Positions 45,559-64,000 of a stretch of 64,000 nucleotides of DNA are shown in pieces. Positions within the stretch are counted from its first letter, which is position 1. The number at the start of each line of letters is the position of its first letter. The stretch is from Pseudomonadota bacterium (GTDB taxonomy: Bacteria; Pseudomonadota; Alphaproteobacteria; Sphingomonadales; Sphingomonadaceae): NCBI GenBank assembly GCA_018240865.1, contig JAFEEY010000031.1, positions 1-64,000 on the forward strand, read 5' to 3'. The notes under the pieces are model-generated. The model did no database searches. It saw only the letters and a program-made list of their open reading frames with translations, and was not told the DNA's origin. Made by a program: the position numbers and the translations under genes.

Positions 45559-46107
45559 ATGAGCCACGATGACGACGACGGCACATGCCAATTCGCCGAG
45601 CGGCGCAGCGACAGGTTCATCGACCGGCTGTTCCGGACCGAAGCGCCGCGCCTTGCGCGCTTCATCCGGCGTTCGATCAAGCAACCTGACGACGTGCATG
45701 ACCTTGTCCAGGAGACATTCGTCAACTTCGTCGCCGGCGCCCCCAAATCCTCCGTGCGCAATCCCGAAGCCTATCTCACGACCATCGCACGCCGCCTCCT
45801 CTGGGGCCGGGCAAAGCGCAGGGAGGCACAGGGCAATGTGCAGCACGTATCGGTGGATGACGCCGATGAACTCTCGATCGGACCCGAGCAGGAATGGATG
45901 ATGGAAGCATCGGATGTCATCCGAAGATATGAGCAGGCTCTCGCCGAACTCCCCGCTCGTACCCGCGAGGTGTTCCGACTGAGCCGCCAGGAAGACCTAG
46001 CCTATGAGGAGATCGCCGAGCGTCTCGGCATCACCAAAAGGATGGTCAAATATCATTTGCGCAAGGCGCTCATTTATCTCGACAGGCGAGTGAACGGCAA
46101 TGACTAA
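45559..46107 (+). CDS. ECF sigma factor, FecI-like
   Basis: 182 residues. Region 2: IDRLFRTEAPRLARFIRRSI, QPDDVHDLVQETFVNFVAGA; region 4: ALAELPARTREVFRLSRQED, AYEEIAERLGITKRMVKYHL. FecI-type factors are released by a FecR protein when a transducing TonB receptor binds its ligand. FecR follows with an 8-base overlap, and an STN-type receptor follows FecR, so the surface-signalling trio is complete. Expected to turn on receptor and isopeptidase genes, and perhaps others. Confidence 0.93.
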   Translation: MSHDDDDGTCQFAERRSDRFIDRLFRTEAPRLARFIRRSIKQPDDVHDLVQETFVNFVAGAPKSSVRNPEAYLTTIARRLLWGRAKRREAQGNVQHVSVDDADELSIGPEQEWMMEASDVIRRYEQALAELPARTREVFRLSRQEDLAYEEIAERLGITKRMVKYHLRKALIYLDRRVNGND

Positions 46108-47119
46108 CCGCGAACGAAATCCCTTTGCCAAGGGCCAGCTCAGAAGCGAGGCGACGAACTGGTTTCTCACGATGCGGGATCGCGACGCCGAGCAGCATCG
46201 CGCCGAGTTCGAGAAGTGGCTCGCCCGCGGCGCCATGCACCGGGCCGCCTATAACAGCATTGCCCATACCTATCTCATCGGCGATGTGAATTGGGACGGG
46301 CTACCGCCGCCGCAGCCTGTTCGCGGCACGGTCATTCGGACGCGCTTCGCGCTTGCCGGCTTGCTGATGCTGCTGGCTTGCCTCGTCTGGCGTGTCGTGG
46401 TCCCCTCCGATCTCGCCTCTGAGCGCCAGAGGGAACAGCCGGCCGCGGCGATCGCGCAGGCGCCTGCGCAATTCGTCACCCGGCTCGGCGAGGTCAGGCG
46501 CATCAAGCTCGCCGACGGTTCCCAGATCACTCTGGACACCGACACATTGGTGTCGGTCGATTATCGCAAGGACGAACGGGACCTTCGCCTGGAGCATGGA
46601 CGAGCCCGTTTCGAGGTCGCGCATGAGGGCCGTCCCTTCGTCGTCGAAGCCGGCGATAGCGAAGTGATCGCGCGGGGCACTGTCTTCGACGTCAGCGTCC
46701 TCGAGCCTGACGAGGTTCGCGTTCATCTGTTGCGTGGCAAGGTCGAGGTCAGAAGCCGGCGGCAGGGACCGCGCCGCGATATGATCCACTTGGCCGTCTT
46801 GCAGCCGGGCCAAGGGATGTTGCTCGACGATGACCCCACGCCGACGCGACCTTCCAAACCGCGAACCGAGCCGGTATCGGACTGGCCATCCGGCTCGATC
46901 GATTTCGCGCATTCGACGCTCGGCGAGGTGATCGCGACGGCCAATCGTTATTCCGTAACCAAGATTCGCCTGGCTACACCCGAAATGGAGCGGCTTCCGG
47001 CATCCGGTGTGTTTCGGGTGAACGATCCCGATCGACTGGCGAAATTGCTCTCCCAGCTGTTCAAGCTGGAGATCACTCGCGCGCCGGGCGAAATCATCCT
47101 GAGCAAGCCCGGCAAATAA
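46100..47119 (+). CDS. FecR-family anti-sigma/signal transducer
   Basis: 339 residues. N-terminal FecR_N domain NWFLTMRDRDAEQHRAEFEK, a single membrane helix near residues 80-95 (FALAGLLMLLACLVWRVVV), then the periplasmic FecR domain: TRLGEVRRIKLADGSQITLD, DLRLEHGRARFEVAHEGRPF and a C-terminal STN-contacting part (GVFRVNDPDRLAKLLSQLFK). Holds the sigma factor at the membrane and relays the receptor signal. Overlaps the sigma gene, so co-translated. Confidence 0.93.
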   Translation: MTNRERNPFAKGQLRSEATNWFLTMRDRDAEQHRAEFEKWLARGAMHRAAYNSIAHTYLIGDVNWDGLPPPQPVRGTVIRTRFALAGLLMLLACLVWRVVVPSDLASERQREQPAAAIAQAPAQFVTRLGEVRRIKLADGSQITLDTDTLVSVDYRKDERDLRLEHGRARFEVAHEGRPFVVEAGDSEVIARGTVFDVSVLEPDEVRVHLLRGKVEVRSRRQGPRRDMIHLAVLQPGQGMLLDDDPTPTRPSKPRTEPVSDWPSGSIDFAHSTLGEVIATANRYSVTKIRLATPEMERLPASGVFRVNDPDRLAKLLSQLFKLEITRAPGEIILSKPGK

Positions 47120-47213: not shown

Positions 47214-49778
47214 ATGATATTCCGCATCGGAGCGGCAAGCGTTGCGCTTGCCGCAATGGGTTCTGTTGCGTCTCAAACGGCTTATTGCCAACCATCTTCG
47301 ACTATTCGATACGACTTGCCGTCTCAGGACTTGGTGGTGTCGCTTCGGACTGTCGCACGCATGTCGGGTCGCGACATCATCATTTCGACAGGCGCCGTCG
47401 AGGGCAAGATTGCTCCGGAACTCCGTGGAACCTACCTGCCGGACGAAGCGGTACGGAAGCTCACGGCCGAGAGCGGTGTCCGCGTTCGCTTCACGCGTGA
47501 CGCAGTACTGGTTGGCGGCGATGCACAAACCAATCTGAGCGAACCCCGCCCGATCGACAGTCCAAGCGAAATTCTTGTAACCGGTTCGCGTATTCGGCAA
47601 GCGCCGACGCCATCCCATGTCGTTGTCCAGACACAGGAGCAGATGCGAGACGCTGGCCAGAATACGCTTATGGAAGCGATCCGGACCATCCCGCAGAACT
47701 TCAACGGCGGACAGAATCCTGGCATCGGCCAGCAAGTTCCGGTGCAGAGCGGCGGGAGCAATATCGGCGCGGCTTCGACCATCAACCTTCGGGGATTGGG
47801 AAGCGACGCGACCCTGACGCTGCTGAACGGACACCGGCTTCCCTACAGCTCATCGCGAAGCAGCATCGACGTTTCGTCCATTCCCTTCCTCGCGATCGAC
47901 CGCATCGAGATCGTCGCGGATGGTGCGTCAGCGCTCTATGGCTCCGATGCGGTTGGCGGTGTCGCCAATATCCTTTTGAAGCGGGACTATGGCGGGGCCA
48001 TCGCCAGCGCCCGGTTCGGGGCTGCGACGGAGGGCGGATACGAGCAACAGCAATATGGCGTTCTTGCGGGCCGACGCTGGTCCGGCGGCGGCGTGGTTGC
48101 CGCATATGAATTCGAACGGGATACCGAGATCGTCGCGAGACAGCGGTCCTATGCAGCCGAAGTGTCGCCAGGGCTGACGCTTTTCCCATCGATCAAGCGC
48201 CACAATGTGATGATCGCGGCTCATCAGGAGCTTTCCCCGGAGGTTAGCGTCGCGGTCGATGGGCTTTACAATAAGCGGTGGAGCACGACGCGCTACCAGA
48301 CCTTTCCCACGGCAAAGTGGTTCGTGAACGGCAATGAACAAAACTCGACGACGGAATCGTTCGTGGTTTCGCCTTCGGTGACGTTCTCACCTTCCTCGTC
48401 GTGGGAGGTGACGGCAGTCGGCGTCTATGGGGAGGAACGCGCCCGCTTTGACTATAGGCCCTATCGGAACGGCGTACTTTCGCGGTCGACGGGTTGCTAT
48501 TGCAATACGGCCAAATCTATCGAGGTGAACGCCGATGGCGAACTCTTTGCGCTTCCGGGCGGGCCGCTGAAGGTTGCGTTCGGCACAGGCTATCGGGAAA
48601 ACCGCCTCGTCGTCGAGAGCAGGATTGGTACGACCCAACCTCTCGATGGACGCCAGAAGGTCTATTATGCGTTCGGCGAACTCTCCGTCCCCTTGATTGC
48701 GCCCGAACTTAATTCGCCGCTCGGCGACGCGCTGACATTGAGCGCGGCGGCGCGCTATGAAGACTATAGGGGGATCGACAAGGTCGTCTCGCCGAAGCTG
48801 GGCGTCATCTACTCCCCGAGCCGCGACCTCGACCTCAAATTCTCCTGGGGCAAGTCGTTCAAAGCGCCCACGCTCTTCCAGCAGTTTACGCAATCACGGA
48901 TCGATCTCGACTCCCCCGCATATTTTGGCGGACCCGAATATCCTGCGGATTCCACAATCCTCTTTTTGTGGGGAGGAAACCCCAATCTCCGGCCGGAAAG
49001 GGCCACGACGTGGTCGGCTACCTTGAGCCTCCATCCACGATCAATGCCGGGGTTGCGGCTTGATGTCGGCTACTTCGATGTGAAGTATCGCGACCGGGTC
49101 ATTATCCCTCTCACCTATGCGCAGCAGGCGCTTTCGAACCCGATCTACGCTGACCTCGTCGAGCGCAATCCGTCGGTTGATCGTGTACAGGAGCTCGTCG
49201 CAGCGGCGGATAGATTTGACAACTACACCTCCGGACCTCTCGATCCCGGCAAAGTCGTTGCAATCATCAACAGTGCCTATCTGAATGCCTCACGCCAGGA
49301 TGTGCGTGGGGTCGATGCGACCCTCTTCTATGATGTGGACCTCGGTGAGAAAGCCGGCGAACTGAGCCTCAGCGGGAACGCGAGCTACATCGATAGCCAC
49401 CAGCGGCTTAGCAAGCTTCAACCCGAAATCGACCTTGCAGGAACCCTGTACAATCCGCCCCACTTTCGCGCGCGGCTGGGCGGCGTCTGGAAGAAGGGAG
49501 AGGCCGTCGCCAGCGCCTTCGTGAACTATACAGGCGGCGTTTCAGACGTTCGAACCTCCGCGCCTGTGAAGGTTTCGTCCATGACGACCGTCGACCTTTC
49601 CGCCCGTTACAAGATTTCCTCCGTGCTGCAGGTTGGTCTGTCGGCGCAGAACATTTTCAATCAAGCACCCGGGATCATCGCCACCAATCCCCGATACGCC
49701 TACGAAGCGCCCTACGATTCTACGAACTATTCTCCATTCGGGCGGGTCGTGAGCTTTAGCCTCACGGCGACCTGGTGA
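47214..49778 (+). CDS. STN-domain TonB-dependent receptor for lasso peptide
   Basis: 854 residues. Signal peptide to about residue 25; STN domain 30-105 (YDLPSQDLVVSLRTVARMSG, GTYLPDEAVRKLTAESGVRV); TonB box/plug from EILVTGSRI with TINLRGLGSDATLTLLNGHR and DRIEIVADGASALYGSDAVG; 22-strand barrel ending FSLTATW. STN means it signals through FecR to the sigma factor. Its place directly before an S9 isopeptidase marks it as the importer of the lasso peptide, as in astexin-type loci. Ligand identity is inferred from context. Confidence 0.93.
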   Translation: MIFRIGAASVALAAMGSVASQTAYCQPSSTIRYDLPSQDLVVSLRTVARMSGRDIIISTGAVEGKIAPELRGTYLPDEAVRKLTAESGVRVRFTRDAVLVGGDAQTNLSEPRPIDSPSEILVTGSRIRQAPTPSHVVVQTQEQMRDAGQNTLMEAIRTIPQNFNGGQNPGIGQQVPVQSGGSNIGAASTINLRGLGSDATLTLLNGHRLPYSSSRSSIDVSSIPFLAIDRIEIVADGASALYGSDAVGGVANILLKRDYGGAIASARFGAATEGGYEQQQYGVLAGRRWSGGGVVAAYEFERDTEIVARQRSYAAEVSPGLTLFPSIKRHNVMIAAHQELSPEVSVAVDGLYNKRWSTTRYQTFPTAKWFVNGNEQNSTTESFVVSPSVTFSPSSSWEVTAVGVYGEERARFDYRPYRNGVLSRSTGCYCNTAKSIEVNADGELFALPGGPLKVAFGTGYRENRLVVESRIGTTQPLDGRQKVYYAFGELSVPLIAPELNSPLGDALTLSAAARYEDYRGIDKVVSPKLGVIYSPSRDLDLKFSWGKSFKAPTLFQQFTQSRIDLDSPAYFGGPEYPADSTILFLWGGNPNLRPERATTWSATLSLHPRSMPGLRLDVGYFDVKYRDRVIIPLTYAQQALSNPIYADLVERNPSVDRVQELVAAADRFDNYTSGPLDPGKVVAIINSAYLNASRQDVRGVDATLFYDVDLGEKAGELSLSGNASYIDSHQRLSKLQPEIDLAGTLYNPPHFRARLGGVWKKGEAVASAFVNYTGGVSDVRTSAPVKVSSMTTVDLSARYKISSVLQVGLSAQNIFNQAPGIIATNPRYAYEAPYDSTNYSPFGRVVSFSLTATW

Positions 49779-49784
49779 CGGCTC

Positions 49785-51914
49785 GTGCGGCCGATTTCGA
49801 GGCGTTGGAGCACGCTTCCCGTTCTCGCCGGCGCGCTTTTCGCCGCTCAAACATCGGTCGCCGCCGATGGGACGACCTGCAAGGACATCTTGCCGGTGGC
49901 GGCCGCCGCGGGAACGGCGCAACGCGACGTGTCCGCAAAGGATTTGGCGTCGCTTCGCGATCTAAGCTCGACGGCTGAGCTGCCCCAAGAAACCCCATTG
50001 GGGGTTTCGCCGGACGGTCGCAACTTGGCGTTCGTTCTCTATCAAGGAGAACCCGCCGACAATCGGGTGTGCCGCGCGCTAATAGTCTTACCCCTCGCGC
50101 GCGGTGGACAGCCGCGCATGATCGACAGCGGCGGCGACGTGATATTCGCTCCAAGCATCTTCCGGAATCTTGTGCAGCCGTCGGGACCGTGGGCCACCAA
50201 CCAGCCGCAGTGGTCGCCAGACGGCCGCACAATCGCATATCTTAAGCGGATTGACGGCGTAACCCAGGCTTGGCTCGTTCCGATCGACGGCGGTTCCTCC
50301 CGACCGGCTACCCGATCTCCCGTGGATGTGGAGGCCGTGGCTTGGGCGGCCGATGGTCGAGGGCTGATCTTCCGTAGTAGCCCCGGGCGACTGAGGGAGC
50401 GGCAGGAGTTCGAACGGGAGAAGCTGTCGGGATTCCGCTATAATGATCGGTTCGTACCCGGCCGGAGTAACGAGCCTCTCCCGACCGGGAGCATGCAGGC
50501 CGAATATTCTTTTATCGACGTTCAGTCCGCCGAAGTCCGATCAGCACGGCGGGAGGAGATCGCCCGTTTGAATGCGGTTGATCTCTCGCGGCCCGAAGGC
50601 TCGCCCAGCTTGGCCCGCATGGTCTCGGTACGCTCCGAACGGCCGGGCGAATGGCCGGATATCTCACGCCTTTGGCTGACAGGAGGCGGCCGAGAGCCTT
50701 TGCCCTGCAAGGCCGATGCGTGCGCAGGCCAATATTACCGCGATCTCTTTGCCTTCTGGTGGCGCGAAGCCCCCCAAGAGCTGTTGATCCTCCGACGCGA
50801 GGGGCCGGGAAGAAGCCTGACGGCGCTTTACCGATGGTCGCCGCGTGACGGTCGTTCGTCGCGTATTTTTTCGACAGAGGACCTCATTGCCGGATGCCGT
50901 TCCCTCAACGAGGCGCTTTTCTGTGTTCGGGAAACGTCGACGTCGCCGCAGCACATCGTAAAGATCGATATCGCTACCGGCCAAATTGACACGCTGTTCG
51001 ATCCGAATCCGGAGTTTAGCAGCTTGCGGAAAGGTAAGGTGACACGACTCCATTGGCGCAACGATCTTGGGCTGGAGACCTTTGGCGATTTGGTCCTTCC
51101 CCCTGAGTACAAACCGGGCAAGAAACTCCCCCTGATCGTCGTCCAGTATCGCTCGCGCGGTTTCTTGCGAGGTGGTGTTGGCGATGAATATCCCATCTTT
51201 CCGTTCGCGGCGCACGGTCACGCTGTCCTCAGTGTCGAACGGTCGCCATTTTATGATGAAGCCGGTGGGAAGAAATGGCCCAGCTATGAAGATGCGGAGC
51301 GCGCAGGGAACGCGAATTGGAATGATCGCTGGAGCAGCCTCTCTTCGGTCCGCAACGGGGTAATGGCCGCGATCGCCACGGGCTTCATCGATCCCGCCAG
51401 AATCGGCATTACCGGTTTGAGCGACGGGGCGACGACGGCTCGCTTCGCGCTCATCAATGATCCCGACCTGTTCGTTGCGGCATCGGTCAGTTCCTGTTGC
51501 GCCGATGGCGATCCGCTGATGATCTACGGGGGACCGGCAATTGCCCGCGAGCGCCTGGACATGGGATTTCCATCGGTATTTGGAGCAAAGGCAACTGAAG
51601 CATGGGCTCCGGTTTCGCTGAGGATCAGCGCTGCCAAAGTTCGCGCGCCGATCCTGATGCAACTCGCTGACCGTGAATTCATTGGAGGGTTGGAAGCCTA
51701 CACGTCTCTGAAGGCTCATAAGAAGCCCGTCGACATGTATGTCTTTGACGGCGAATATCATATCAAATGGCAACCGGCGCATCGGCTCGCGATCTACAAT
51801 CGCAACATCGATTGGTTTGATTTCTGGCTGCTCGATAGGCGTGATTCAAATCCCGCTAAGGCGGAACAGTATAGGATGTGGGAGGCTCTAGACGAGCAGC
51901 GAGGTTCGCATTGA
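49785..51914 (+). CDS. Lasso-peptide isopeptidase, S9 family
   Basis: 709 residues from GTG 49785, six bases after the receptor stop. Signal peptide (LPVLAGALFAAQTSVAA), a beta-propeller-like domain with PLGVSPDGRNLAFVLYQ and QWSPDGRTIAYL repeats, then an alpha/beta hydrolase domain. Candidate catalytic triad: S546 in ITGLSDGATT, D629 in LADREF, H659 in DGEYHIKW. Enzymes of this kind cut the macrolactam bond of lasso peptides after import, giving the linear form. The last 27 bases overlap the end of the cyclase gene on the other strand. Confidence 0.88.
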   Translation: MRPISRRWSTLPVLAGALFAAQTSVAADGTTCKDILPVAAAAGTAQRDVSAKDLASLRDLSSTAELPQETPLGVSPDGRNLAFVLYQGEPADNRVCRALIVLPLARGGQPRMIDSGGDVIFAPSIFRNLVQPSGPWATNQPQWSPDGRTIAYLKRIDGVTQAWLVPIDGGSSRPATRSPVDVEAVAWAADGRGLIFRSSPGRLRERQEFEREKLSGFRYNDRFVPGRSNEPLPTGSMQAEYSFIDVQSAEVRSARREEIARLNAVDLSRPEGSPSLARMVSVRSERPGEWPDISRLWLTGGGREPLPCKADACAGQYYRDLFAFWWREAPQELLILRREGPGRSLTALYRWSPRDGRSSRIFSTEDLIAGCRSLNEALFCVRETSTSPQHIVKIDIATGQIDTLFDPNPEFSSLRKGKVTRLHWRNDLGLETFGDLVLPPEYKPGKKLPLIVVQYRSRGFLRGGVGDEYPIFPFAAHGHAVLSVERSPFYDEAGGKKWPSYEDAERAGNANWNDRWSSLSSVRNGVMAAIATGFIDPARIGITGLSDGATTARFALINDPDLFVAASVSSCCADGDPLMIYGGPAIARERLDMGFPSVFGAKATEAWAPVSLRISAAKVRAPILMQLADREFIGGLEAYTSLKAHKKPVDMYVFDGEYHIKWQPAHRLAIYNRNIDWFDFWLLDRRDSNPAKAEQYRMWEALDEQRGSH

Positions 51915-53687
51915 ACTTCCTTCTAGAGGGGGGCCGGCCACCAGATCGGCTTGCGCGCTTGCCCAGGCCTCTACGTCTACGAATGACATAAGCCGTGGGT
52001 ATTCCAGTTCCGAGCACGGCCGATTGGAATTTAGTGCCGCCCACACAGCATCTCGATCGAGAATGCCGTGACGCACGAGTCCACCGTCCATCAATAACTC
52101 CGTGATGCGTGACCTATTAGCCTTGAAGACGTCGGTGACGAAGCTGTTGGGGGTCGCTTTGGAACGACGGTAGATCACGCGCCGAGGCAGGTTGTCGGCA
52201 AACGCCGCTCGCGCGACCCATCGGTTATGCCCGTCATGGAACCACATCCAACTTGGAATTCTCAGGGCGGCTTCAACTACAGGCTGCGCGGTCAGGGGCG
52301 ATATCGTTGGCGCGACCCTGCTTCGTTCCAAACCCTCAAAATGGTTCTGCGTATGCAGCAACAGGGCTACATGGGCAGCCTGTCCCGGCAATGCGCCGCT
52401 TGGTGGATTCAACCAGGGGTGCGAGAAAATTTGAACTTCGTTTGCGATCTCCTCCTTCAGGAAGCTCCTATCCGTGGGCCAACGATATTGCGCCGCGCCG
52501 CGCCAAGCTCGCCGGAGGCCGCCGCGCAGCGCGGTCGCCCAGCTGCACCCCGTCAAGAATGCGATATCTCGAGATGTCTTGAACGCGCCTGGTCCCAATC
52601 CCCCAACGCGGATCCGATCTGCGACCGGCGCGACCGACTGGAGCGAGCAGAATACATTGTCGCCGCCGCCGCCGCTAAAAAAGATGTCCGCGCCGACCGC
52701 CGCCGCCGCCGCGATTTGAAGTCGGTCGGATTCTTGCGCGAACGATCTCGCCACGGGTCGAGGAAGATTGGCTGCGGTTGATCGACCGACGTCGACAGTG
52801 CCCACCTGCCGGACCTCCTCGAACAGCGGCACGTCCAGGAGGTCTGTCACCTGGCGGGCGTAATCCCGCTCGTCCCCGTCCGGATCAGCGCTGACGAGGT
52901 TGAGGCATGAAAAGGGCTGACCGCACTCCGCCAAGGCAGCGGCTACGATGGAAGAATCCAGTCCTCCCGACAGGCCCAGTAACACATGTCGCCGGCCCGC
53001 GGACCATCCTGCTATGCTATCGGCAATCGATCGGTGAAGCCGGAGCGCGGCATCGTCAGGATCGTCCAATTGGTGAGCAGACGCCGCGTACGACCATGGC
53101 GACCAGACAGGGGAGATATGCGCGTCCGCGACGCTGATAGTCATCCGGAATCCGGGCAATAGTTCCATCACCCCGGCGATCGAGGTGCGCTCGGATCGTA
53201 GCCCGACTGCAAAGAGGTGATGGGCGATCTCGCGCCAATCAATCTCATGCTTGGCGCCGCAAACGGAAATTAGGGTGGCTAAGTCCGACGCGATAACCCA
53301 GCCACCACGCACCTGCGCATAGAGGCACGGTTGGCCACCCGAAGGGTCTCTGATAATCAGCGTCTCGCCATCTCTGGGGCCAGGAATCACTGCGACGTAG
53401 GCGCCCCAATATCGTTCTAGAAGCTCAGCCCCGTTCGATTGCAGAATTCGTCGTCCGCCGTCACTGTTCAGTCGTCTTACGCTTTCTTGCTCCCCGGGGG
53501 AGAAAACCGTTCCGATAGCTGCGCCGACCCCGTCTATAAGGACAACCTCTTTCGGATTGTCGGCAAGCAACACGAAGTCATTGCGTGCAAGAATGACGGA
53601 CAGGGCTGTCGCTTCGATTGCCTTTGCGATCAGATCCGCAACGCCGCTGTCGGGCGAACCGGTGACGATGGCGAAGGATGTGCTCAT
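51888..53687 (-). CDS. Lasso-peptide cyclase (asparagine synthetase-like, C protein)
   Basis: 599 residues. N-terminal glutamine-amidotransferase-like domain without an N-terminal cysteine (starts MSTSFAIVTGS), then the synthetase domain with the ATP-pyrophosphate loop LLGLSGGLDSSIVAAAL and FFSGGGGDNVFCSL. It adenylates an Asp or Glu side chain of the core peptide and lets the new N-terminal glycine attack it, closing the ring. ATG overlaps the protease stop by one base (TGATG), so B and C are coupled. Confidence 0.93.
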   Translation of the reverse strand: MSTSFAIVTGSPDSGVADLIAKAIEATALSVILARNDFVLLADNPKEVVLIDGVGAAIGTVFSPGEQESVRRLNSDGGRRILQSNGAELLERYWGAYVAVIPGPRDGETLIIRDPSGGQPCLYAQVRGGWVIASDLATLISVCGAKHEIDWREIAHHLFAVGLRSERTSIAGVMELLPGFRMTISVADAHISPVWSPWSYAASAHQLDDPDDAALRLHRSIADSIAGWSAGRRHVLLGLSGGLDSSIVAAALAECGQPFSCLNLVSADPDGDERDYARQVTDLLDVPLFEEVRQVGTVDVGRSTAANLPRPVARSFAQESDRLQIAAAAAVGADIFFSGGGGDNVFCSLQSVAPVADRIRVGGLGPGAFKTSRDIAFLTGCSWATALRGGLRRAWRGAAQYRWPTDRSFLKEEIANEVQIFSHPWLNPPSGALPGQAAHVALLLHTQNHFEGLERSRVAPTISPLTAQPVVEAALRIPSWMWFHDGHNRWVARAAFADNLPRRVIYRRSKATPNSFVTDVFKANRSRITELLMDGGLVRHGILDRDAVWAALNSNRPCSELEYPRLMSFVDVEAWASAQADLVAGPPLEGSSMRTSLLV

Positions 53688-54346
53688 CAGATCACCAAGA
53701 TCGGCGTGAATGTTCTGACGTTGTCGATGTCGTCGTTCAGCACGAGGTCTTCATGCTGTACCCAGCAATGGGCGAGAAACGGATCCGGTCGGATACCGAT
53801 CACCAGCTTCGCTGGGACACCACGGGATGCGCAGTGCTGCGCCATGGCTATTGAGCGTGGAAGACATAGGTCGTGGACCCCGGTCAGCAGACCGGACCAC
53901 CGATAGGCTGCTGCAATCGCGTCGAGGTTGCCTTGATAGCTTGCTAGGGTGGGGCGCCGGCGGGTTTGAATGGCGAAAAGGGCTTTCTGCGCCATCCCGC
54001 GCGCAATTTGGCGCCTAACGCGCAGGAAGCGCCATGACGCGGCTAACACGTCTATGATCCGAAACCGCGCCATCGGTAGATCGAGAATGCTCGCGCTCGC
54101 TGGGCAGTCCAGCCGACACGGAGAAGGGACTTGATCTGAAACAGAGTGCGCCAGAACGCCCTTTCGGATCAATGCTCCGATCGCTTCCTGCTGAGACTCG
54201 AGCAAGGGCTCTCGCTTAATCAATTTCAAAAAGGCTGTCTGCGCAGGTTCCAGCAGGGTGGAGTAGCGCATGCTGCGGAGGTCCAGAAACTGAACGCGCG
54301 CATCAGAAACGCAAAAGTGCAGGTCTTCTCGTAGCGTGTAGCCCAC
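53687..54346 (-). CDS. Lasso-peptide RRE-leader peptidase (B protein, B1-B2 fused)
   Basis: 219 residues from GTG 54346, with GAGGTAAG eight bases upstream. The longer frame to 54403 would run through a terminator hairpin and overlap the precursor, so I reject it. Residues 1-80 form a PqqD-like recognition element (GYTLREDLHFCVSDARVQFL, LIRKGVL) that binds the leader; residues ~90-219 are a transglutaminase-like cysteine protease with C161 (HDLCLPRSIAMA), H193 (FLAHCWVQ) and D205-206 (VLNDD). It removes the leader before cyclisation. The fused form is usual in proteobacteria. Confidence 0.92.
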   Translation of the reverse strand: MGYTLREDLHFCVSDARVQFLDLRSMRYSTLLEPAQTAFLKLIKREPLLESQQEAIGALIRKGVLAHSVSDQVPSPCRLDCPASASILDLPMARFRIIDVLAASWRFLRVRRQIARGMAQKALFAIQTRRRPTLASYQGNLDAIAAAYRWSGLLTGVHDLCLPRSIAMAQHCASRGVPAKLVIGIRPDPFLAHCWVQHEDLVLNDDIDNVRTFTPILVI

Positions 54347-54358
54347 CGATCTTACCTC

Positions 54359-54392
54359 AAAAAAATCAGCGCGCGGCGGAACCGCGCGCTGA
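54359..54392 (-). terminator. Intrinsic terminator between lasso precursor and B gene
   Basis: On the minus strand: an 11-bp perfect stem (arms TCAGCGCGCGG and CCGCGCGCTGA, 54366-54376 and 54382-54392) with a 5-base loop, then seven T at 54365-54359. It starts eight bases after the precursor stop and ends just before the B ribosome site. Likely lets most transcripts end after the precursor so that substrate exceeds enzymes. Confidence 0.9.
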
Positions 54393-54399
54393 CATCGGT

Positions 54400-54531
54400 T
54401 CAATCGGCATCGAGCCCGAGGAGGGCGATTCCGCCCTGCTCATCGACCCGCTGATGCAGCGGGCCTTTGGTTTCGACATTCGCGTCGCCCAAGTCGATCA
54501 GCACATCGACGGTGTCATCATGGCGTTCCAT
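54400..54531 (-). CDS. Lasso-peptide precursor (A protein, 43 aa)
   Basis: 43 residues, ATG at 54531, AAGGAG seven bases upstream. The leader MERHDDTVDVLIDLGDANVE is followed by T-K, then the core. The LIDLGDA...ET pattern and a threonine two residues before the core glycine are hallmarks of proteobacterial lasso leaders. Core: GPLHQRVDE as the ring part and QGGIALLGLDAD as the tail. Gly1 would join Asp8 or Glu9 (8- or 9-membered ring). B, C and an isopeptidase follow in context. No aromatic residue is present in the core, so any steric plug would have to be Ile or Leu. No close named relative comes to mind. Confidence 0.9.
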   Translation of the reverse strand: MERHDDTVDVLIDLGDANVETKGPLHQRVDEQGGIALLGLDAD

Positions 54532-54579
54532 GGCATTGCTCCTTCAATTTGCCGCATCATTGCGACCTTGGGAGCGTGC

Positions 54580-54642
54580 TACGAACGAGACATATATCCC
54601 AATCTATATGGGTTCAGACTTGGTCTATATATACGAACGAGA
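54580..54642. promoter_or_regulatory. Two direct repeats upstream of lasso precursor
   Basis: TACGAACGAGA occurs exactly at 54580-54590 and 54632-54642, 52 bp apart (about five helical turns), flanking an AT-rich stretch with TATATA elements. This lies between the GntR gene end and the precursor start. Probable promoter with two sites for one regulator; the neighbouring GntR protein or the ECF sigma system are candidates. Confidence 0.6.
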
Positions 54643-54648
54643 TGATCC

Positions 54649-55278
54649 TCACGATTTCTGGTGAAGATGCTCAGCATCTCGCAGAGCAATTCGCCGCGCA
54701 ATTCCAGACGCATGATCGAGGCGTCGGCGGTGATAGCCATGCACGGCGCGACGCAATTTCGCTTCAGGACCCGTTCGAACCAACACATCCAGATTGGCGA
54801 ACTCGCGGTTCAAACCGCCAAGTTCCCATTGTTCCGCCTGTCGAATTCGACACATGCGATCATTGATCGACTCGATGATCGCCGAAAAGATCGGATTGTC
54901 AGCGCCGCGGGCAAGGTCCGCCAGAAGAACATCAATCGGCGGTTCGAGATCCCGGCCGCTTGGGGCCGCCCCTTCTGCCGCGCCACCCGCGCTGCGCCAT
55001 GCGACCGCCAGGAGCGTCAGACGCAGGCTCGCCTCGTAGAGGTCGCGGACATCCTGTTCATCCAAAGACGGACATGCGAATCCTCCAGTCGATCTCATCT
55101 CGATCAAACCCTCGCCGACCAATCGCAGGAGTGCCTCGCGAACGGGTGTCGCGCTCGCCGAGTAGCGCGTTTCCAATTGTGTGATCTGTAGCCGGCCCGG
55201 AGCGAACCCACCCGCCAGAAGGTCCGCCTTCAAGGCCGTATAGACGCGTTCGCTCGTTTCGTGATCGGCGGTCAACAC
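54649..55278 (-). CDS. GntR-family (FCD-type) transcriptional regulator
   Basis: 209 residues. Winged helix SERVYTALKADLLAGGFAPG, QLETRYSASATPVREALLRL, VGEGLIEMRSTGGFACP is the GntR pattern; the C-terminal all-helical part (FSAIIESINDRMCRIRQAEQ, LRRAVHGYHRRRLDHASGIA) is FCD-like. It is directly upstream of the lasso precursor in the same direction, and GntR genes recur next to sphingomonad lasso loci as I recall. Likely controls the precursor operon. Confidence 0.88.
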   Translation of the reverse strand: MLTADHETSERVYTALKADLLAGGFAPGRLQITQLETRYSASATPVREALLRLVGEGLIEMRSTGGFACPSLDEQDVRDLYEASLRLTLLAVAWRSAGGAAEGAAPSGRDLEPPIDVLLADLARGADNPIFSAIIESINDRMCRIRQAEQWELGGLNREFANLDVLVRTGPEAKLRRAVHGYHRRRLDHASGIARRIALRDAEHLHQKS

Positions 55279-56131: not shown

Positions 56132-56605
56132 ATGAATATCGGTGAGTTTAACTTGAACAAGGGGCGCATGATGGGGTGGATTGCTACCCGCACAATCGAC
56201 TTGCCCAAGCTGGGATTGCGTCCCGTCGAGAGCCAGAACGAACTTGCGCCCGCATATGAAATTCTCGCTCTCAATGTCGGCGACCGCTGGGTGCAGGTCG
56301 GCGCGCTTTGGGAAGCCATCGCCAAGAAAACCGGCGAGGTTTTCCTGCAAGGCAATGTCGATGACCCCTGTATGCCCGAAGCGCTGCCCATCGCGCTTTT
56401 CGGCAATGATGCCGAAGGCTATCGCGTGGCATGGCGCAGGCCGGAACGTCGCGACGATTTCGGCCCCGCCGTTCGCACGCCGCGCGGCGATGCCCCGTCC
56501 AGCCGTGGCGACGACTACGGTTTCGGGGGCAGCACGGCGGACGAACATGGCGGGCTGACCACCGACACCGCCGCCGCCGACCTCGACGACGAGGTTGCAT
56601 TCTAG
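56132..56605 (+). CDS. DUF736-family protein
   Basis: 157 residues. GGAG nine bases upstream, preceded by about 100 bases of unusually AT-rich DNA (56015-56130), a likely promoter region. MNIGEFNLNKGRMMGWIATR, AYEILALNVGDRWVQVGALW and EALPIALFGNDAEGYRVAWR are the DUF736 core; the C-terminal 45 residues are Asp/Gly-rich and disordered. DUF736 genes are common near relaxase and transfer genes of alphaproteobacterial plasmids and elements. Function unknown. Confidence 0.82.
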   Translation: MNIGEFNLNKGRMMGWIATRTIDLPKLGLRPVESQNELAPAYEILALNVGDRWVQVGALWEAIAKKTGEVFLQGNVDDPCMPEALPIALFGNDAEGYRVAWRRPERRDDFGPAVRTPRGDAPSSRGDDYGFGGSTADEHGGLTTDTAAADLDDEVAF

Positions 56606-56686
56606 GACCGGACCAAGACGGGCCGGGGGAGCGCAGCCACGCTTCCCCGGACCCTGACCGATCATCCCGCATCAGGAGTCAGACCC

Positions 56687-57742
56687 ATGACGAAGAAATC
56701 AGCTAAGAGGGCGGTTAGCACATTTGCCGACCTGCCGGAACTTATCGCCGAGGAAACCGCAACCACCGACTTTGAGGCATCATTCGGCGACCCGATGCCG
56801 CTTTCCATCATCGAGCAAGGCGACGAACCGGGCGAGCATACCATGCCTGAACCATTCGCCGCGCAGAAGGTTTGCGGCGAGCTTATGACGTCGCTTTTCC
56901 TGCTGCTGGAAGATACGCGGCTTTCCCCGCTCGCCCCCGATATCGCATGGGGTATCGTCAACAGCTTTCATTTCGTGGCGGGAAAGCAGGAACGTCGCGA
57001 AGATCGATTGACCGACATAATCCGCGACATGACCCGGCGCATGGAACCGGGCGAGGTGTTCAACGAGACGCTTGAGAGCAAGCAGCTTGAATGCCAGTCC
57101 GTGACCGAACAGCGCGTCGCCATCGAGGCCATGCGGGATTATACCGCCGCCATGTATCGCGCTTGCTGGCGTCGTGCATGGGCGCCGACGAAGGGCAGCA
57201 AGGCGTCCTCCGTCACGACCGCAAGTTATATTAGCGCCGTCGATTTCCTTCGCGAACGTGCCCTTGCCAAACGGGAACGGGTTGATCCGCAAGGCCCGGT
57301 TGTCATCTTCTCCGGCCCCGCGATTTGGCACGACTGGGAACCGCTTTGGGCGAAGCTAAGCGAGATCAAGGCTCGCATCCCGCACATGACGCTTGTCACC
57401 ACCGGCCAACGCAAGGGGGCGGATGCTATCGCGGCGGCATGGGCCGCGCGCGAAGGCGTGCCCATTGTCGCATTTGGCCTCTACGGGGGCGGCAAGAAGC
57501 CCGCATTCGCCCGCAACAAGAAGTTTGCGGAGCTTGGCCCGGTCGAAGCCGTCCTTTGCGAGGGGTCGGGCATACAGGCCAATCTTTACCAGACCATGCG
57601 GAAACTGGACGTCCCCATTCACGCCTTCCACTGGCCCAAGGACATGCCCAAGCGGCAAAAGCCGCACACCATCTACACTTGGGAGGCGGAGGATTATTTG
57701 CAGCGCTCCGACACATTCAGGAGCGCGAGACGCTACGCCTGA
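56687..57742 (+). CDS. DUF2493 (SLOG-like) protein
   Basis: 351 residues. The N-terminal 190 residues are acidic and helical (DITRxMEPGE-like stretch RRMEPGEVFNETLESKQLEC). The C-terminal part GPVVIFSGPAIWHDWEPLWA, MTLVTTGQRKGADAIAAAWA, VPIVAFGLYGGGKKPAFARN is the DUF2493/SLOG Rossmann domain (here GxRKGADxxAxxWA). Usually found with DUF736 on mobile elements. Ligand unknown; nucleotide-sugar or nucleotide binding is a family-level idea. Confidence 0.82.
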   Translation: MTKKSAKRAVSTFADLPELIAEETATTDFEASFGDPMPLSIIEQGDEPGEHTMPEPFAAQKVCGELMTSLFLLLEDTRLSPLAPDIAWGIVNSFHFVAGKQERREDRLTDIIRDMTRRMEPGEVFNETLESKQLECQSVTEQRVAIEAMRDYTAAMYRACWRRAWAPTKGSKASSVTTASYISAVDFLRERALAKRERVDPQGPVVIFSGPAIWHDWEPLWAKLSEIKARIPHMTLVTTGQRKGADAIAAAWAAREGVPIVAFGLYGGGKKPAFARNKKFAELGPVEAVLCEGSGIQANLYQTMRKLDVPIHAFHWPKDMPKRQKPHTIYTWEAEDYLQRSDTFRSARRYA

Positions 57743-57750
57743 CCCTATAA

Positions 57751-57779
57751 GCCACGGCGCTGCCGGACAGCGCCGTGGC
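57751..57779. terminator. Strong hairpin after DUF2493 gene
   Basis: Perfect 12-bp stem GCCACGGCGCTG / CAGCGCCGTGGC with a 5-base loop, nine bases after the DUF2493 stop. There is no T-run on either strand, so it may protect the transcript end or be a weak terminator. Confidence 0.5.
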
Positions 57780-57905
57780 CTAATCGCACAGACCCGCCAG
57801 GGCTGGCCCGCTTTACGCGCGCTGGCCCTGTTTTCGTACCACAGGCCGCCGCCGCGCCTGACGGCGCGGCGGCGGGGAACCCGAAAAGGGAAAGGGCCAA
57901 CAGGT

Positions 57906-58229
57906 TCACGCCTCGGCATGGGGGTTATCGACCGTGCCGCTATCTCCCTTTTTTGGTGCTGGCGTGGCTGGCGATTTCCCTGAGCGAGAGGTGTCGGACG
58001 CCGCTGACGCTCCCTTGAGCGCGGCCAGTGCGGCAACGCCGCCGAGCCGCAGCACATAGCCCAGCACGTCGCGGAACTCGCGTTCCGTCACTTGCTCGAC
58101 CGGCAGCGCCGTCACGATGCCCGCATAGCGATCACGCAGCTTCAGCCGTGTCGCGGCAATCTCAACTGATATTCTCTTTTCGCGCTCGACCAGATCGGCG
58201 AGCCTGTCGCGTTCAGACATTTTCGGCAT
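57906..58229 (-). CDS. Small TraC/TraD-like mobilisation accessory protein
   Basis: 107 residues, [20 protein letters not shown], then a basic helix and [19 protein letters not shown]. The layout (charged coiled N-terminus, then a short helical block with an aliphatic pattern) resembles small TraC or TraD proteins that sit beside relaxases in alphaproteobacteria. Sequence match is weak. It is divergent from the RHH protein and transfer genes. Confidence 0.4.
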
Positions 58230-58449
58230 GACCAGTTTCCTTGTTCAGGCTGGCCCGCTCGTCACGCGATCCTTGTCGCACAGGCTCACCCGCGCCACAA
58301 GCGACCCCGCCGCGAACAAGGCGGCCAAACTCCCCCACATCGATCAACGCCGCAAAGGGTGCGCCCGGCAGCGGTAGAGCAGACGCAGCGACGCCGTCGC
58401 TGCGGGCAAGCGACGCACGCGCTTCGCGGTTGTATTGCACCGTACGCAC
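58213..58449 (-). CDS. Hypothetical protein (78 aa), tentative
   Basis: Begins [20 protein letters not shown], continues [20 protein letters not shown], and ends with overlap of 17 bases into the next minus-strand gene. Overlap and smooth composition favour a real gene, but there is no clear ribosome site and no family is recognised. Confidence 0.4.
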
Positions 58450-58493
58450 GGGTGCTGAGGCCTAAAACGATCATGAAATCAAAGCCTTGATCC

Positions 58494-58607
58494 GGCAGAC
58501 ATGTCAGCCAGAAACCGCTTTATATGGCCGACGCGTCTGCCACCTCAGAAAATCCCTTCTCGAAACCCTAGTATTTCCGGGATTTCCGGCTGGCAGACAC
58601 GTCCGCC
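58494..58607. promoter_or_regulatory. Three copies of a 16-bp palindrome upstream of RHH/transfer genes
   Basis: GGCAGACATGTCAGCC (58494-58509), GGCCGACGCGTCTGCC (58526-58541) and GGCAGACACGTCCGCC (58592-58607) share the symmetric consensus GGCnGACnnGTCnGCC. Start-to-start spacings are 32 and 66 bp. They lie in the divergent gap before the RHH gene and transfer operon. Likely operators for a dimeric or tetrameric repressor, with the RHH protein itself the first candidate; they could also mark a transfer origin. Confidence 0.8.
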
Positions 58608-58697
58608 ATACTGATTTTATTGTGATTGCGGCGGGTCCGCGCTATAGTAGCTTCGCGTCTTGGCCTCCTTGCCGAAGCTCCTGATGGAGCGCCCACC

Positions 58698-58997
58698 TTG
58701 GCAAGGGTCACAATCCGGATTGACGATGCCCTTTACGAGCGGCTGCAACGCCGCGCCCGTAAAGTTGGCGTCAGCGTCGCCGAACTCCTCCGCCCCGCGA
58801 TCGACCAGGCCGCCGATCCCCGCAGCGGCTACGTCTATACGACGCAGGACGAAATCCTCTCCTGCGTTCTGCAGACGCTTTCCATCGTCGCCGCATCGGT
58901 GCGGCGCCGCTCGCCCGAAACGCTCGAGCAAGGCATGGCCGACGCCAGGGCGCTGCTCGAAGCGAAGGGCCTGCTCGGGCCGGAGCAACAGTCGTGA
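58698..58997 (+). CDS. Ribbon-helix-helix DNA-binding protein
   Basis: 99 residues from TTG 58698 (GGAG about nine bases upstream); the frame is open to 58626. RVTIRIDDALYERLQRRARK, VGVSVAELLRPAIDQA is a CopG/Arc-type RHH fold; a helical tail of about 60 residues follows. Placed directly before the coupling protein and relaxase genes, so it is probably a transfer regulator or relaxosome accessory protein binding the palindromes just upstream. Confidence 0.78.
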   Translation: MARVTIRIDDALYERLQRRARKVGVSVAELLRPAIDQAADPRSGYVYTTQDEILSCVLQTLSIVAASVRRRSPETLEQGMADARALLEAKGLLGPEQQS

Positions 58998-59169
58998 ACC
59001 GGCGCGCGGATCTCCGTGTCGTCGGTGTGCGAATTGAATCTCCGTTCCCCACCTCGGACCTCCGACCAGACACCGCTATTGGCCCTCGCGCCTTGCTGCC
59101 CTTCCGGTGCTTCCCCGATCCGGGGGCGCGGCGAACTGGCGGGCACTCTGTTCAGGGGAGCGCGCGGCC

Positions 59170-61317
59170 ATGAGCATCTTCCGCAACGATACCCTCGGCT
59201 CATGGACGCGTGGCGGTCAGGCCATCGTCCACAATGTGCGGATGACCACCCAGGTCTTCTACCAGACTATGCTCGCCGGGCTACTGCTCTGGGTGATGGG
59301 CACCTGCTGGTATGCGTTCGAGAGGTCGACCGAATATCAACGCTTCGTTCTGGTCAAGCTGGTCGAGGCGACCTTCAAGGCAGATGCGGCTCCCGGAACC
59401 AACGACCCGGTGCTGTTCCGCACCCCCGACGGCCGCCAATATTGGACGTCGGCCGACACCCTGGCCGAGGCGCCGGTGGTCAAGAATGCGCTCCACAAAT
59501 TGGAGACCGACCTGATCCATGGCGCGGCGATCGCCGGGGCCATCGCCCTTTTAGGACTGGTCAGCGCCTGGTTCTATTTTACCCGGACGGGGCGGGGGCT
59601 GGGGTCAAACGAATATCTTCGCGGCGCCCGATTCGGATCGGTCTCGGAAGTCCGCCGCGCGCTCCGGGGGCAGAAGAAAGGGACCCTTTCGATCGGCGGC
59701 ATCGCCGTGCCCGACGCCTTCGAGCCGGAGCATATCCTGCTGGTCGGCGCGCCCGGGACGGGGAAAACCAATCTCATCACCACCATGCTCGAAGGTGTCC
59801 GCAAACAGGGAAAGCGGGCGATCGTCTATGATACGGCCGGGAGCTTCGTCGAGAAGTTCTACCGCCCCGGCACGGACATCCTGCTCAACCCGCTCGACAA
59901 GCGCACCGACATATGGAGCCCCTGGGTCGATGTCCCGCAGGAATATCATTACGACCAGATCGCGGAGTCAACGATTCCGGACAAGCATGGGGATCCCTTC
60001 TGGTCGAAAGCAGCGCGTGGCACCTTGGTCGCCGTCCTGCGCAAGCTCGCGAGGCAGAAGCACACCCTGATCTCGGTGCTGCTCGATCGGGTGCTGCGCT
60101 CCCCGCTCGCCGACCTTGCCGCCTACGTGAAGGGAACTGATGCCGCCGCCTTCATCTCCGCTGAAGGGGAACGGACTTCGGCCGGCGTCCAGGCCGAGCT
60201 TGCCTCTGTCATGCGCAGCTTCGCCTATCTCGACGATACCGAGGACGGCTTCTCGATCCGGCGCTGGGTCGAGGACGAGAAGGACGACAGCTGGTTGTTC
60301 GTCACCGTCAAGGCCGACCAGCTGCCCTCGCTGCGTCCCCTGATCACCGTCTGGCTCGACATCGCGATCAGCGCGATCATGAGCCTCACGCCCGACCGCG
60401 ACCGGCGGCTTTATTGCGTCATCGACGAGCTGCCGACGCTCCAGAAACTGCCAAGCCTTTCCGACTTCCTTGCCCGCGCGCGCAAATATGGCGGCTGCGG
60501 CATATTGGGCTTCCAGTCCTATCCCCAGCTCACCGCAACCTACGGAAAGGAGGATGCGGCCGCCATCACCGGCTACTGCTCCACGTGGGTGGCGCTCAGG
60601 GCGAACGATACCGATACCGCCGAACTGATCTCGAAGAATCTTGGCCGGGTCGAGCAGGTCGAGGCCAATGAGGGGATGTCCTATGGCGTGAACGACATGC
60701 GCGACGGGGTGAACCTGTCACGCATGCAAGTAACTAGGCCGCTGGTGCTGGACACCGAGGTCAATCACCTGCCCAACCTCACGGGCTTTCTCCGGTTCGG
60801 TCGCAACCTTCCCGTCGTACGCTTCACCGATCGCATCAATCCGCGGCCCAGCGTCGTTCCGGCTTTCGTCGAACGATCCGAACCGCCCAGGCGCCTGCCG
60901 CTCGGAAAAGCCATCATCTCCCAGGCATGGGCACGCCGGCGCGCGCTTCAGGCGCAGCAGGCTGCGGCCAGACAAGGCCCGGACTCCTCTCCGCCCGCCG
61001 CGCCGGACGCTTCGCCGTCCCCCGGCACGACGCAAGGCGATCTTTTCTCCGACCAGCAGAATCCCCGACCCGCGGACGAGGAGACCGGGGTGTCCCGCCC
61101 CGAAGAGGCTGGCGAGCATGAAGAGGCCTTCGGGCCACATCAGCCTGTCGAACCAGACACGAAAGGTGAAGGTGCGCCGATTTCCGATCCTCCGGATGAG
61201 GACAATGTCGTCGCGACACCCGTGCCCCTGCTGGGTGCGGTGCGCGGCACCATTCGCGTGTCGCTTGCCAGCCATGGGCGCGCCGAAGGTCCGCGTGAGA
61301 AGGCGAAACCGGCATGA
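59170..61317 (+). CDS. traD: Type IV coupling protein, TraD-type
   Basis: 715 residues from ATG 59170, with AGGGGAG eight bases upstream. Two N-terminal membrane helices (MLAGLLLWVMGTCWYAF; AAIAGAIALLGLVSAWFYF) flank a periplasmic loop, then the hexameric ATPase with Walker A VGAPGTGKTNL near 192 and Walker B YCVIDELPTL near 416, QSYPQL and a Pro/Glu-rich C-terminal tail. Passes the relaxase-DNA complex to the transfer channel. Stop overlaps the relaxase start (ATGA), so the two are made together. The transfer channel genes are not in the window. Confidence 0.93.
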   Translation: MSIFRNDTLGSWTRGGQAIVHNVRMTTQVFYQTMLAGLLLWVMGTCWYAFERSTEYQRFVLVKLVEATFKADAAPGTNDPVLFRTPDGRQYWTSADTLAEAPVVKNALHKLETDLIHGAAIAGAIALLGLVSAWFYFTRTGRGLGSNEYLRGARFGSVSEVRRALRGQKKGTLSIGGIAVPDAFEPEHILLVGAPGTGKTNLITTMLEGVRKQGKRAIVYDTAGSFVEKFYRPGTDILLNPLDKRTDIWSPWVDVPQEYHYDQIAESTIPDKHGDPFWSKAARGTLVAVLRKLARQKHTLISVLLDRVLRSPLADLAAYVKGTDAAAFISAEGERTSAGVQAELASVMRSFAYLDDTEDGFSIRRWVEDEKDDSWLFVTVKADQLPSLRPLITVWLDIAISAIMSLTPDRDRRLYCVIDELPTLQKLPSLSDFLARARKYGGCGILGFQSYPQLTATYGKEDAAAITGYCSTWVALRANDTDTAELISKNLGRVEQVEANEGMSYGVNDMRDGVNLSRMQVTRPLVLDTEVNHLPNLTGFLRFGRNLPVVRFTDRINPRPSVVPAFVERSEPPRRLPLGKAIISQAWARRRALQAQQAAARQGPDSSPPAAPDASPSPGTTQGDLFSDQQNPRPADEETGVSRPEEAGEHEEAFGPHQPVEPDTKGEGAPISDPPDEDNVVATPVPLLGAVRGTIRVSLASHGRAEGPREKAKPA

Positions 61318-64000
61318 TCCATCCCCGTCGCCTCAAGGGTGCGCCTGCCAATATCGCGCGCTATTATAAGATTGGCGATTATTACACCAAGGGCGGCAAC
61401 GAGCCGTCCGAATGGGGCGGCAAGCTCGCCGTCAGCCTCGGCCTGTCGGGCGAGGTCGACGCCAAGCAGTTCGAGGAACTGCTCGGCGGCAAGGTCGGCG
61501 ACCAGCAACTCGGCCGCCGCCGCAAGGACGGCATCCAGCATCACCCCGGCTGGGACTTCAACATCAGTGCCCCCAAGTCGATCTCGATCCTGGCGTTGGT
61601 GACGGGCGACGAGCGTATCCTTGCCGCCCATGAGCGAGCGGTCGGGGTCGCGCTCGCCTATCTCGAGGAACATGCCGAGCTTCGCCGCCGGGTCGAGGGT
61701 GAAGTCGTCAACGAGACCACCGGGCGCCTGCTGTTCGCGCGCTTCACCGAATATGCGAGCCGCGAACTCGATCCGCAGCTTCATACCCACGTCGTCGTTC
61801 TCAACATGACCAACCATCTGAACGGCGATCGCATGTCGAGCCTCGAGACGCGCTCGATGTTCGCCGAACAGATCGTCGCAGGCCAGATTTATCGCAACGA
61901 GCTTGCCCATGATGTGCGCGAGATCGGTCACGAGGTCATGTTTGATCCGCGCAAGGGGCTGTTCGAGATCGAGGGTATGCCCGGCCAGCTCATCCGCGAC
62001 TATTCGCAGCGCGCCGAGCAGATCAACGCCCATGCCGCGGAACACGGGTTTGAGGGGCAAGCCATGCGCCGCGTCTCCTTCTTCGCGACGCGTAAGGCGA
62101 AGGAGAAGGTCGGGCTGGAAGAGTTGCGCGACCAATGGCGGGCGCGAGCCGAGCCTTATCGTGAGGAATTGGACCAACTTCAGTCCGCCGCCCGTCAGCG
62201 TGGCGAACGGACGATCGAGACCGATCCGGGCGTTGCCCGCCGCGCCGCCCTGTTCGGCATCCGTCAAAGCGAGACGCGCGAAGCGGTCAACAATATCGGG
62301 CGGCTCTATCGCACCGCGCTCGCATCGCATGTGGGCGAGGTTCGCTTCGGCGATGTGCGGCCGCTGTTCGACGTGCAGGAATCCAATCGGAAGCTGCTCG
62401 TCACCGTGCGACAGACCGGCGATCAACCGCTCCCGCGCGGACGTACATCACGCCGGACCGCGAAACTCGAACTCGCCCTGTCGGAACATCTTTCGCTCGC
62501 AATGGGCGACGCCTCTCCGGCCGCAAGCCGTGAACGCCTTTCGGAAGTCGCCATGGCGCAAGGACTCACATCCGACCAGACCGCGGCGCTGATCGCGATC
62601 GGCAGCAGCACCAACCGGGCGGTCGGCGTTCACGGTGTCGGCGGTGCGGGCAAATCGACCTTGGTCCGCGCATTGGTCGAGGCGACGAGCGACGATCATA
62701 TCACGCTCGCGCTTGCGCCGACCTCCTCGGCGGCCGCGGAACTCGGGCAGAAAGCGGGCATCGAATCCCGGACGCTCGCCTCGCTCCTCGCGAGCGGCGG
62801 CCATAACATCACCGACAGGCATATTCTCGTGCTGGACGAAGCCGGCCAGCTTGGCAACCGGCAGGCGCTGCGCGTGCTGGAGATCAGCCGCGCCACCGGC
62901 GCGCGGCTCATATTTCTCGGCGACAACAAGCAAACCGGCGCGATCGAACAGGGCAAGGCCTATTGGCTGCTCCAGCAGCTGGGGCTGCCGACCAGCCAGC
63001 TCAAGGAATCCCTGCGCCAGAAAACCGGCTCCGCGAGGGAAGCCGCGGATATGGCGCGCAAGGGCGACTATGTCGCCTCGCTTGCAGCGCTCGACCGTGT
63101 GACCACCGGGGAAAGCGCGGAGAACCTTGCCAGGGCGATGGTCGCCGACTGGACTCGCCTGAACCCGGAGACGCGCACCGACACCAATATCCTCGTCCTC
63201 GACAATGCAACCCGCCTGATCGTGAACAGCCATATCCGGGAGGTGCTGAAGCGCGAGGGTACGGTCGCGGCGGAGGACCATCGGCTCGAGGTGCTGACGC
63301 CTGCCGGGATGACCGACCAGGAAAAGCAGATGGCGCGCTTCTACAGCGAAGGCCAAGTGCTGAAGTTCTCGCGCGACAATCCGGGGCTGGGGATCGCTCG
63401 AGACGCCGACTATCGCGTCGTCGGAATCAGTCGGAACAACCATGGCCGGCAGGTCGTGCGTCTTGCGGACGAGCATGGCCGCATCATCGATTGGCGTCCG
63501 GGGCTCGGCAAGGCGGCCCATGTCAACGTGTTCCTGAACGAGAACCGCCAGATCTCTGAGGGCGATCGGATCCAATGGCGGCTGCTCAACAAGGAGATCG
63601 ATGTCAAGAATGCCGAGCGCGGCACCGTCCTGACGCTCGACGGTCCCATCGCGACCATCAAATGGGATCGGGGCGATCGCGTCCAGCAAGTCGACCTGTC
63701 GGTCCACCGGACCTGGGATCATGGCTATGCCGAGACCGTCTATTCCGCGCAGTCCAAGACTTATGCCCGCGTCTATGTGCTGGCCCCCGTGGAATCGGGT
63801 CTGGTCAATGGCCAGAACTATTACACCGCCATCACCCGCGCCGCTTTTGGCGTGAAGCTCTGGACCGAAGATCAGGAGCGCCTTGCGGCCAAGCTCGCGA
63901 CGCGCTCCGGCGAGAAGACCTCTTCGCTCGAAGGGCTTGGCCGGATCAAGGCCGACAGCCACAAGGTTCGCGGCGCGCGTCATAAGGACCGGCACGACCG
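61314..64000 (+). CDS. MobF conjugative relaxase-helicase (TrwC/TraI-like), 3' end outside window
   Basis: 895 residues are visible and the frame is open at the window end. The N-terminal relaxase has tyrosine pairs Y17-Y18 and Y23-Y24 (IARYYKIGDYYTK) and the metal-binding histidines in ELDPQLHTHVVVLNM (H157, H159). A RecD-like helicase follows: Walker A VHGVGGAGKST near 440, LVLDEAGQLG, FLGDNKQTGA and YAETVYSAQSKT as motif V-type. Nicks the element at oriT and unwinds it for transfer. MobF relaxase with a TraD-type partner places this in the F/R388-like class. Confidence 0.95.
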   Translation, partial: MIHPRRLKGAPANIARYYKIGDYYTKGGNEPSEWGGKLAVSLGLSGEVDAKQFEELLGGKVGDQQLGRRRKDGIQHHPGWDFNISAPKSISILALVTGDERILAAHERAVGVALAYLEEHAELRRRVEGEVVNETTGRLLFARFTEYASRELDPQLHTHVVVLNMTNHLNGDRMSSLETRSMFAEQIVAGQIYRNELAHDVREIGHEVMFDPRKGLFEIEGMPGQLIRDYSQRAEQINAHAAEHGFEGQAMRRVSFFATRKAKEKVGLEELRDQWRARAEPYREELDQLQSAARQRGERTIETDPGVARRAALFGIRQSETREAVNNIGRLYRTALASHVGEVRFGDVRPLFDVQESNRKLLVTVRQTGDQPLPRGRTSRRTAKLELALSEHLSLAMGDASPAASRERLSEVAMAQGLTSDQTAALIAIGSSTNRAVGVHGVGGAGKSTLVRALVEATSDDHITLALAPTSSAAAELGQKAGIESRTLASLLASGGHNITDRHILVLDEAGQLGNRQALRVLEISRATGARLIFLGDNKQTGAIEQGKAYWLLQQLGLPTSQLKESLRQKTGSAREAADMARKGDYVASLAALDRVTTGESAENLARAMVADWTRLNPETRTDTNILVLDNATRLIVNSHIREVLKREGTVAAEDHRLEVLTPAGMTDQEKQMARFYSEGQVLKFSRDNPGLGIARDADYRVVGISRNNHGRQVVRLADEHGRIIDWRPGLGKAAHVNVFLNENRQISEGDRIQWRLLNKEIDVKNAERGTVLTLDGPIATIKWDRGDRVQQVDLSVHRTWDHGYAETVYSAQSKTYARVYVLAPVESGLVNGQNYYTAITRAAFGVKLWTEDQERLAAKLATRSGEKTSSLEGLGRIKADSHKVRGARHKDRHD

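Follow-up and report, generated by a model that had tools for sequence, protein, structure and literature searches.

Lasso peptide clusters of the isopeptidase type have a nearly constant architecture, in which a GntR regulator precedes the precursor gene and a TonB transporter and a sigma/anti-sigma pair lie beyond the isopeptidase; the uptake role of these clusters has been called enigmatic (PMC9266682). Across lasso peptides as a whole, the steric lock is usually a bulky aromatic residue (PMC13352647). Benenodin-1 has an 8-residue ring, is held by Glu14/Gln15, and is reported to be trimmed at its C terminus (PMC13352647). Sphingonodin II (GMGSGSTDQNGQPKNLIGG) and caulonodin I (GDVLNAPEPGIGREPTGLSRD) are class II lasso peptides whose cores contain no Phe, Tyr, or Trp (PMC12427821 Table 1). 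Both sphingonodin II and syanodin I have been listed as lacking heat stability (PMC7549694). In the sphingocin system of Sphingomonas BPH, which is linked to phenanthrene use, the precursor SpgA has a LIDLG...ETKGPG leader/core layout, a GL-D C terminus, and Phe in the core, and the isopeptidase and TonB receptor genes are divergent (PMC11006600). The closest relative of the precursor described here is an already annotated member of family NF033522 from Sphingomonas paeninsulae (WP_121152054.1; core, GPLGQGVDENKRIPVAGLSED).

We analyzed a window of 64,000 nucleotides from a member of the Sphingomonadaceae and found a GntR regulator, a lasso precursor (A), its B and C enzymes, and then, in divergent orientation, an isopeptidase, a TonB receptor, a FecR-like protein, and a sigma factor (Table 1). 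This order is exactly that of the published architecture (PMC9266682). An annotated locus on a plasmid of S. paeninsulae contains all eight genes in the same order, and one on a plasmid of Caulobacter rhizosphaerae matches from GntR to the TonB receptor, which is as far as that sequence was retrieved. The AtxE2-type isopeptidase, the TonB receptor, the FecI/FecR pair, and the upstream GntR gene, all missed by the earlier note, define the kind of cluster. Because of the family matches of A, the homology of the B2 domain, C, and the isopeptidase, the shared gene order, the acid at core position 8, and the conserved leader and core positions, we are highly confident that the locus is a benenodin/subterisin-family lasso cluster of the isopeptidase (uptake) type and that it is complete. 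Gene content, homology, motifs, catalytic residues, and the stem-loop are observed here; how the peptide is processed and threaded, its ring size, and its uptake and regulation are inferred.

Table 1. Features of the lasso peptide cluster in the window
Feature	Coordinates	Strand	Evidence
FecI-like ECF sigma factor	45559..46107	+	Position, sequence; annotated sigma factor likewise placed in S. paeninsulae locus; second-locus homologue
FecR-like anti-sigma factor	46100..47119	+	Homologue beside second isopeptidase locus; position of annotated FecR in S. paeninsulae locus
TonB-dependent receptor	47214..49778	+	PF00593, PF07715
AtxE2-family lasso isopeptidase	49785..51914	+	NF033523, 746 bits (cut-off, 400)
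C, asparagine-synthetase-like lasso macrolactam synthetase	51888..53687	-	PF00733, 86 bits
B, leader peptidase, 219 aa, B2 domain plus N-terminal extension	53687..54346	-	NF033537, 77 bits; PF13471
13-bp GC-rich stem-loop plus U tract between A stop and B start	54359..54393 (stem, 54365-54393)	-	Folding, z -4.6
A, lasso precursor, 43 aa	54400..54531	-	NF033522, 40.5 bits (cut-off, 33; full length); PF24178, 45.5 bits (cut-off, 27); family alignment
A leader	Residues 1-22 of A		
A core, GPLHQRVDEQGGIALLGLDAD	Residues 23-43 of A		
Ribosome-binding site of A, AAGGAG	54539..54544	-	Sequence
GntR-family regulator upstream of A	54649..55278	-	PF00392, 45.8 bits; likewise placed in S. paeninsulae and C. 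rhizosphaerae loci

The earlier note had proposed a 43-residue lasso precursor with a good ribosome site, followed by B and C genes, and this proposal was borne out. The open reading frame encodes MERHDDTVDVLIDLGDANVETKGPLHQRVDEQGGIALLGLDAD, its ATG is preceded at 7 nt by AAGGAG, and B lies just downstream, followed by C. The translation scored above the curated cut-offs of both NCBIfam NF033522 ("benenodin family lasso peptide") and Pfam PF24178 ("Subterisin"), which places A in the benenodin/subterisin family; NCBI's own model thus detects A, and close relatives are already annotated. The leader carries the LIDLG...ET motif of the family, and a regular expression for the leader motif matched once in the window, versus 0.06 times per shuffled window. 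The leader/core boundary (MERHDDTVDVLIDLGDANVETK|GPLHQRVDEQGGIALLGLDAD) and the Thr at position -2 of the 22-residue leader were correctly predicted, and the 21-residue core begins with Gly1. Leader and core positions are conserved in the family alignment. The core contains no Cys and has Asp8 and Glu9 as the acids among positions 7 to 9, as in class II lasso peptides. The hand-summed mass of about 2155.10 Da ([M+H]+ near 2156.11) agrees with the value computed for the core minus one water, 2155.1022 Da ([M+H]+, 2156.1095), which alone cannot separate closure at Asp8 from closure at Glu9. A is the sole precursor of the benenodin family in the whole 3.6-Mb genome. A search of PDB sequences with the precursor, a weak query at 43 residues, found no relative, and a nucleotide search of positions 53600 to 54700 against plasmids gave no match.

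The precursor from S. paeninsulae is 51% identical to A and shares its leader, the GPL-Q-VDE ring start, the 21-residue core length, and the lack of aromatics, whereas the A core differs in its tail and in having His4 and Arg6 within the ring. The A core also differs in sequence from sphingonodin II and caulonodin I. It resembles SpgA in leader/core layout and C terminus but lacks the Phe of the SpgA core. Astexin-3, unlike the A core, has Tyr/Trp in its tail and Asp at position 9; its isopeptidase, AtxE2, is homologous to the one found here over about 670 residues, and the TonB/FecIR logic is common to both (PMC9266682).

The B peptidase and the C macrolactam synthetase adjoin A. In B, the B2 domain is a transglutaminase-like peptidase domain in which Cys161, His193, and the Asp of LND, the catalytic residues, are conserved in relatives. 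The N-terminal part of B is presumably a B1/RRE leader-binding domain, judging by its position and its resemblance to relatives; none of the B1 or PqqD models scored against B. The true start of B is probably the GTG at 54346, which has GAGG (54355-54358) 8 nt upstream. A TTG at 54403 was rejected as the start since translation would run through the stem-loop after A, and in relatives translation begins at the M-GY position, past the loop. C contains an SGGLDSS ATP motif and was matched via the general Asn-synthase family; it is homologous to the named lasso cyclase models NF033535 and NF033561 yet falls below their cut-offs, a score that might be expected of a divergent C. The isopeptidase matched the sequence of the AtxE2 crystal structure (5txc) with an E value of 3e-130.

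Between A and B lies a stem-loop that, in the window, is terminator-like. We collected relatives from about 400 Sphingomonadaceae genomes and further loci and extracted their precursors with a purpose-built profile. A GC-rich stem-loop directly follows the stop codon in 71 of 73 distinct family A genes (loci L001-L104), counted where the stem had 9 bp or more and started within 16 nt of the stop; 24% of dinucleotide shuffles scored positive by the same test. After the stops of other genes, such a stem was found in 7% (B), 26% (C), 11% (isopeptidase), and 18% (GntR) of cases; the TonB receptor, FecI, and FecR were represented by 2 to 4 sequences each, too few to count. The median fold z was -3.2 after A, versus about +0.2 inside B and -1.4 upstream of A, and the element recurs in Caulobacter. 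Several relatives' clusters contain tandem precursor pairs, each with its own stem-loop (L007/L067, L021/L066, L020/L069, L063/L093, L083, L101, and L103). We rejected a general role for the stem-loop as an intrinsic terminator in the family, since a clear U tract (at least 5 T in the next 9 nt) follows it in only 3 of the 73 genes; in most of them, the stem-loop therefore more likely serves in 3'-end protection or processing than in termination. In other RiPP operons, such as that of nisin, partial terminators separate the precursor gene from the enzyme genes. The stem-loop probably sets the ratio of A to B/C. It may also be undescribed: Rfam returned nothing above the gathering score, and no description of a lasso A-B hairpin was found in the open-access literature. 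Our broadest proposal, offered tentatively and with the odds against it, is that the stem-loop is a family-wide functional and undescribed RNA element that sets precursor dose versus B/C across uptake-type lasso operons, including that of the aromatic-free A, via 3'-end protection, processing, or partial termination.

The same sample yielded 70 distinct family cores, and a class-wide search with NF033522 outside it found no further member above the cut-off. One recovered core, GIEPLGPVDEDQGEHYLFAGGITADD (locus L081), which we take to be sphingopyxin I, provides an informal positive control for the extraction. An acid occupies position 8 in 62 of the 70 cores and is the sole acid among positions 7 to 9 in 42, which favors a macrolactam through Asp8 and an 8-residue ring; we consider this closure likely. 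The earlier note had drawn the ring as GPLHQRVDE: its start at Gly1 stands, but the family conservation makes the 9-residue closure less likely. The same lasso peptide closed at Glu9 is nonetheless the strongest of the alternatives, though an improbable one: Glu9 is available in the core, position 9 holds the only acid among positions 7 to 9 in 6 of the 70 cores, and the L081 core places Asp there, whereas the prevalence of acids at position 8 and the 8-residue ring of benenodin-1 (PMC13352647) argue against it.

The earlier note had regarded a core without Phe, Tyr, or Trp as unusual. This view did not hold, since 16 of the 70 cores (23%) lack all three residues, as do the published sphingonodin II and caulonodin I, and since benenodin-1 is held by Glu14/Gln15; novelty on this ground is ruled out. 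In 29 of the 70, the part of the core beyond the first acid at positions 7 to 9 is free of these three residues. Given that most locks are bulky aromatics and that sphingonodin II and syanodin I are listed as lacking heat stability, a heat-labile lasso is plausible here. The same two points would fit a core that is cyclized yet not kept threaded without a bulky plug, giving a branched-cyclic or easily unthreaded peptide. We consider that outcome unlikely, as A is accompanied by an AtxE2-type isopeptidase, and such enzymes accept threaded lassos only (PMC9266682), and as aromatic-free cores are common among natural ones.

In the threaded product that we favor, the LIDLG...ET leader would be bound by the N-terminal domain of B and cut after ...ETK (Lys22). 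C would then activate a side-chain acid, most likely Asp8, and an 8-residue macrolactam would close around the tail. The predicted product is the class II lasso GPLHQRVD-EQGGIALLGLDAD, of 2155.10 Da, possibly trimmed at the C terminus, with the tail held by medium-sized residues, e.g., Leu, Ile, or Gln, rather than by aromatics. The peptide would probably be exported and then reimported by the TonB receptor, which may also signal through FecR and the sigma factor, and the isopeptidase would linearize the reimported peptide. The stem-loop would probably keep the A:B/C ratio high.

The presence of the isopeptidase, TonB receptor, FecIR, and GntR genes suggests uptake or signaling rather than antibiosis. 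Many lasso peptides are antimicrobial, and the product could in principle be a narrow-spectrum antimicrobial. This is still less likely than an unthreaded product, as there is no ABC exporter or immunity gene beside A, B, and C and isopeptidase-type clusters are reported to lack antimicrobial activity (PMC9266682). That A is a spurious or decayed gene, for which its shortness is the sole argument, is very improbable given two curated models above cut-off, intact B, C, and isopeptidase genes, a good ribosome-binding site, and the conserved stem-loop.

To the right of the cluster, positions 56132 to 64000 (+) contain conjugation-type genes, including a DUF736-like protein, a type IV coupling protein (59107-61317), and a MobF relaxase (from 61299 onward); the region is partly 75 to 77% identical to sphingomonad megaplasmids. 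A plasmid or an integrative element may carry the cluster. The same genome contains a second lasso locus (contig C80, 4863-12674), whose C, isopeptidase, and TonB receptor are 40 to 42% identical to those of the first and which also has FecR and a sigma factor. The first residue of its C corresponds to residue 89; no A or B was found there, and the whole genome has only one B2 domain. The second locus may be a decayed cluster that retained only the uptake and linearization half.

A adds one sequence to a well-known lasso family. As roughly one in four uptake-type sphingomonad lasso cores lacks aromatics, the absence of Phe, Tyr, and Trp is no reason to regard a core as exotic or as failing to thread. 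When no ribosome-binding site is apparent in the A-B region, published refactorings swap the region for one from Escherichia coli (PMC12670498). Such replacement of the intergenic region is common in heterologous expression, and the conserved A-B stem-loop may be relevant to this practice, provided that the element has not been described before.
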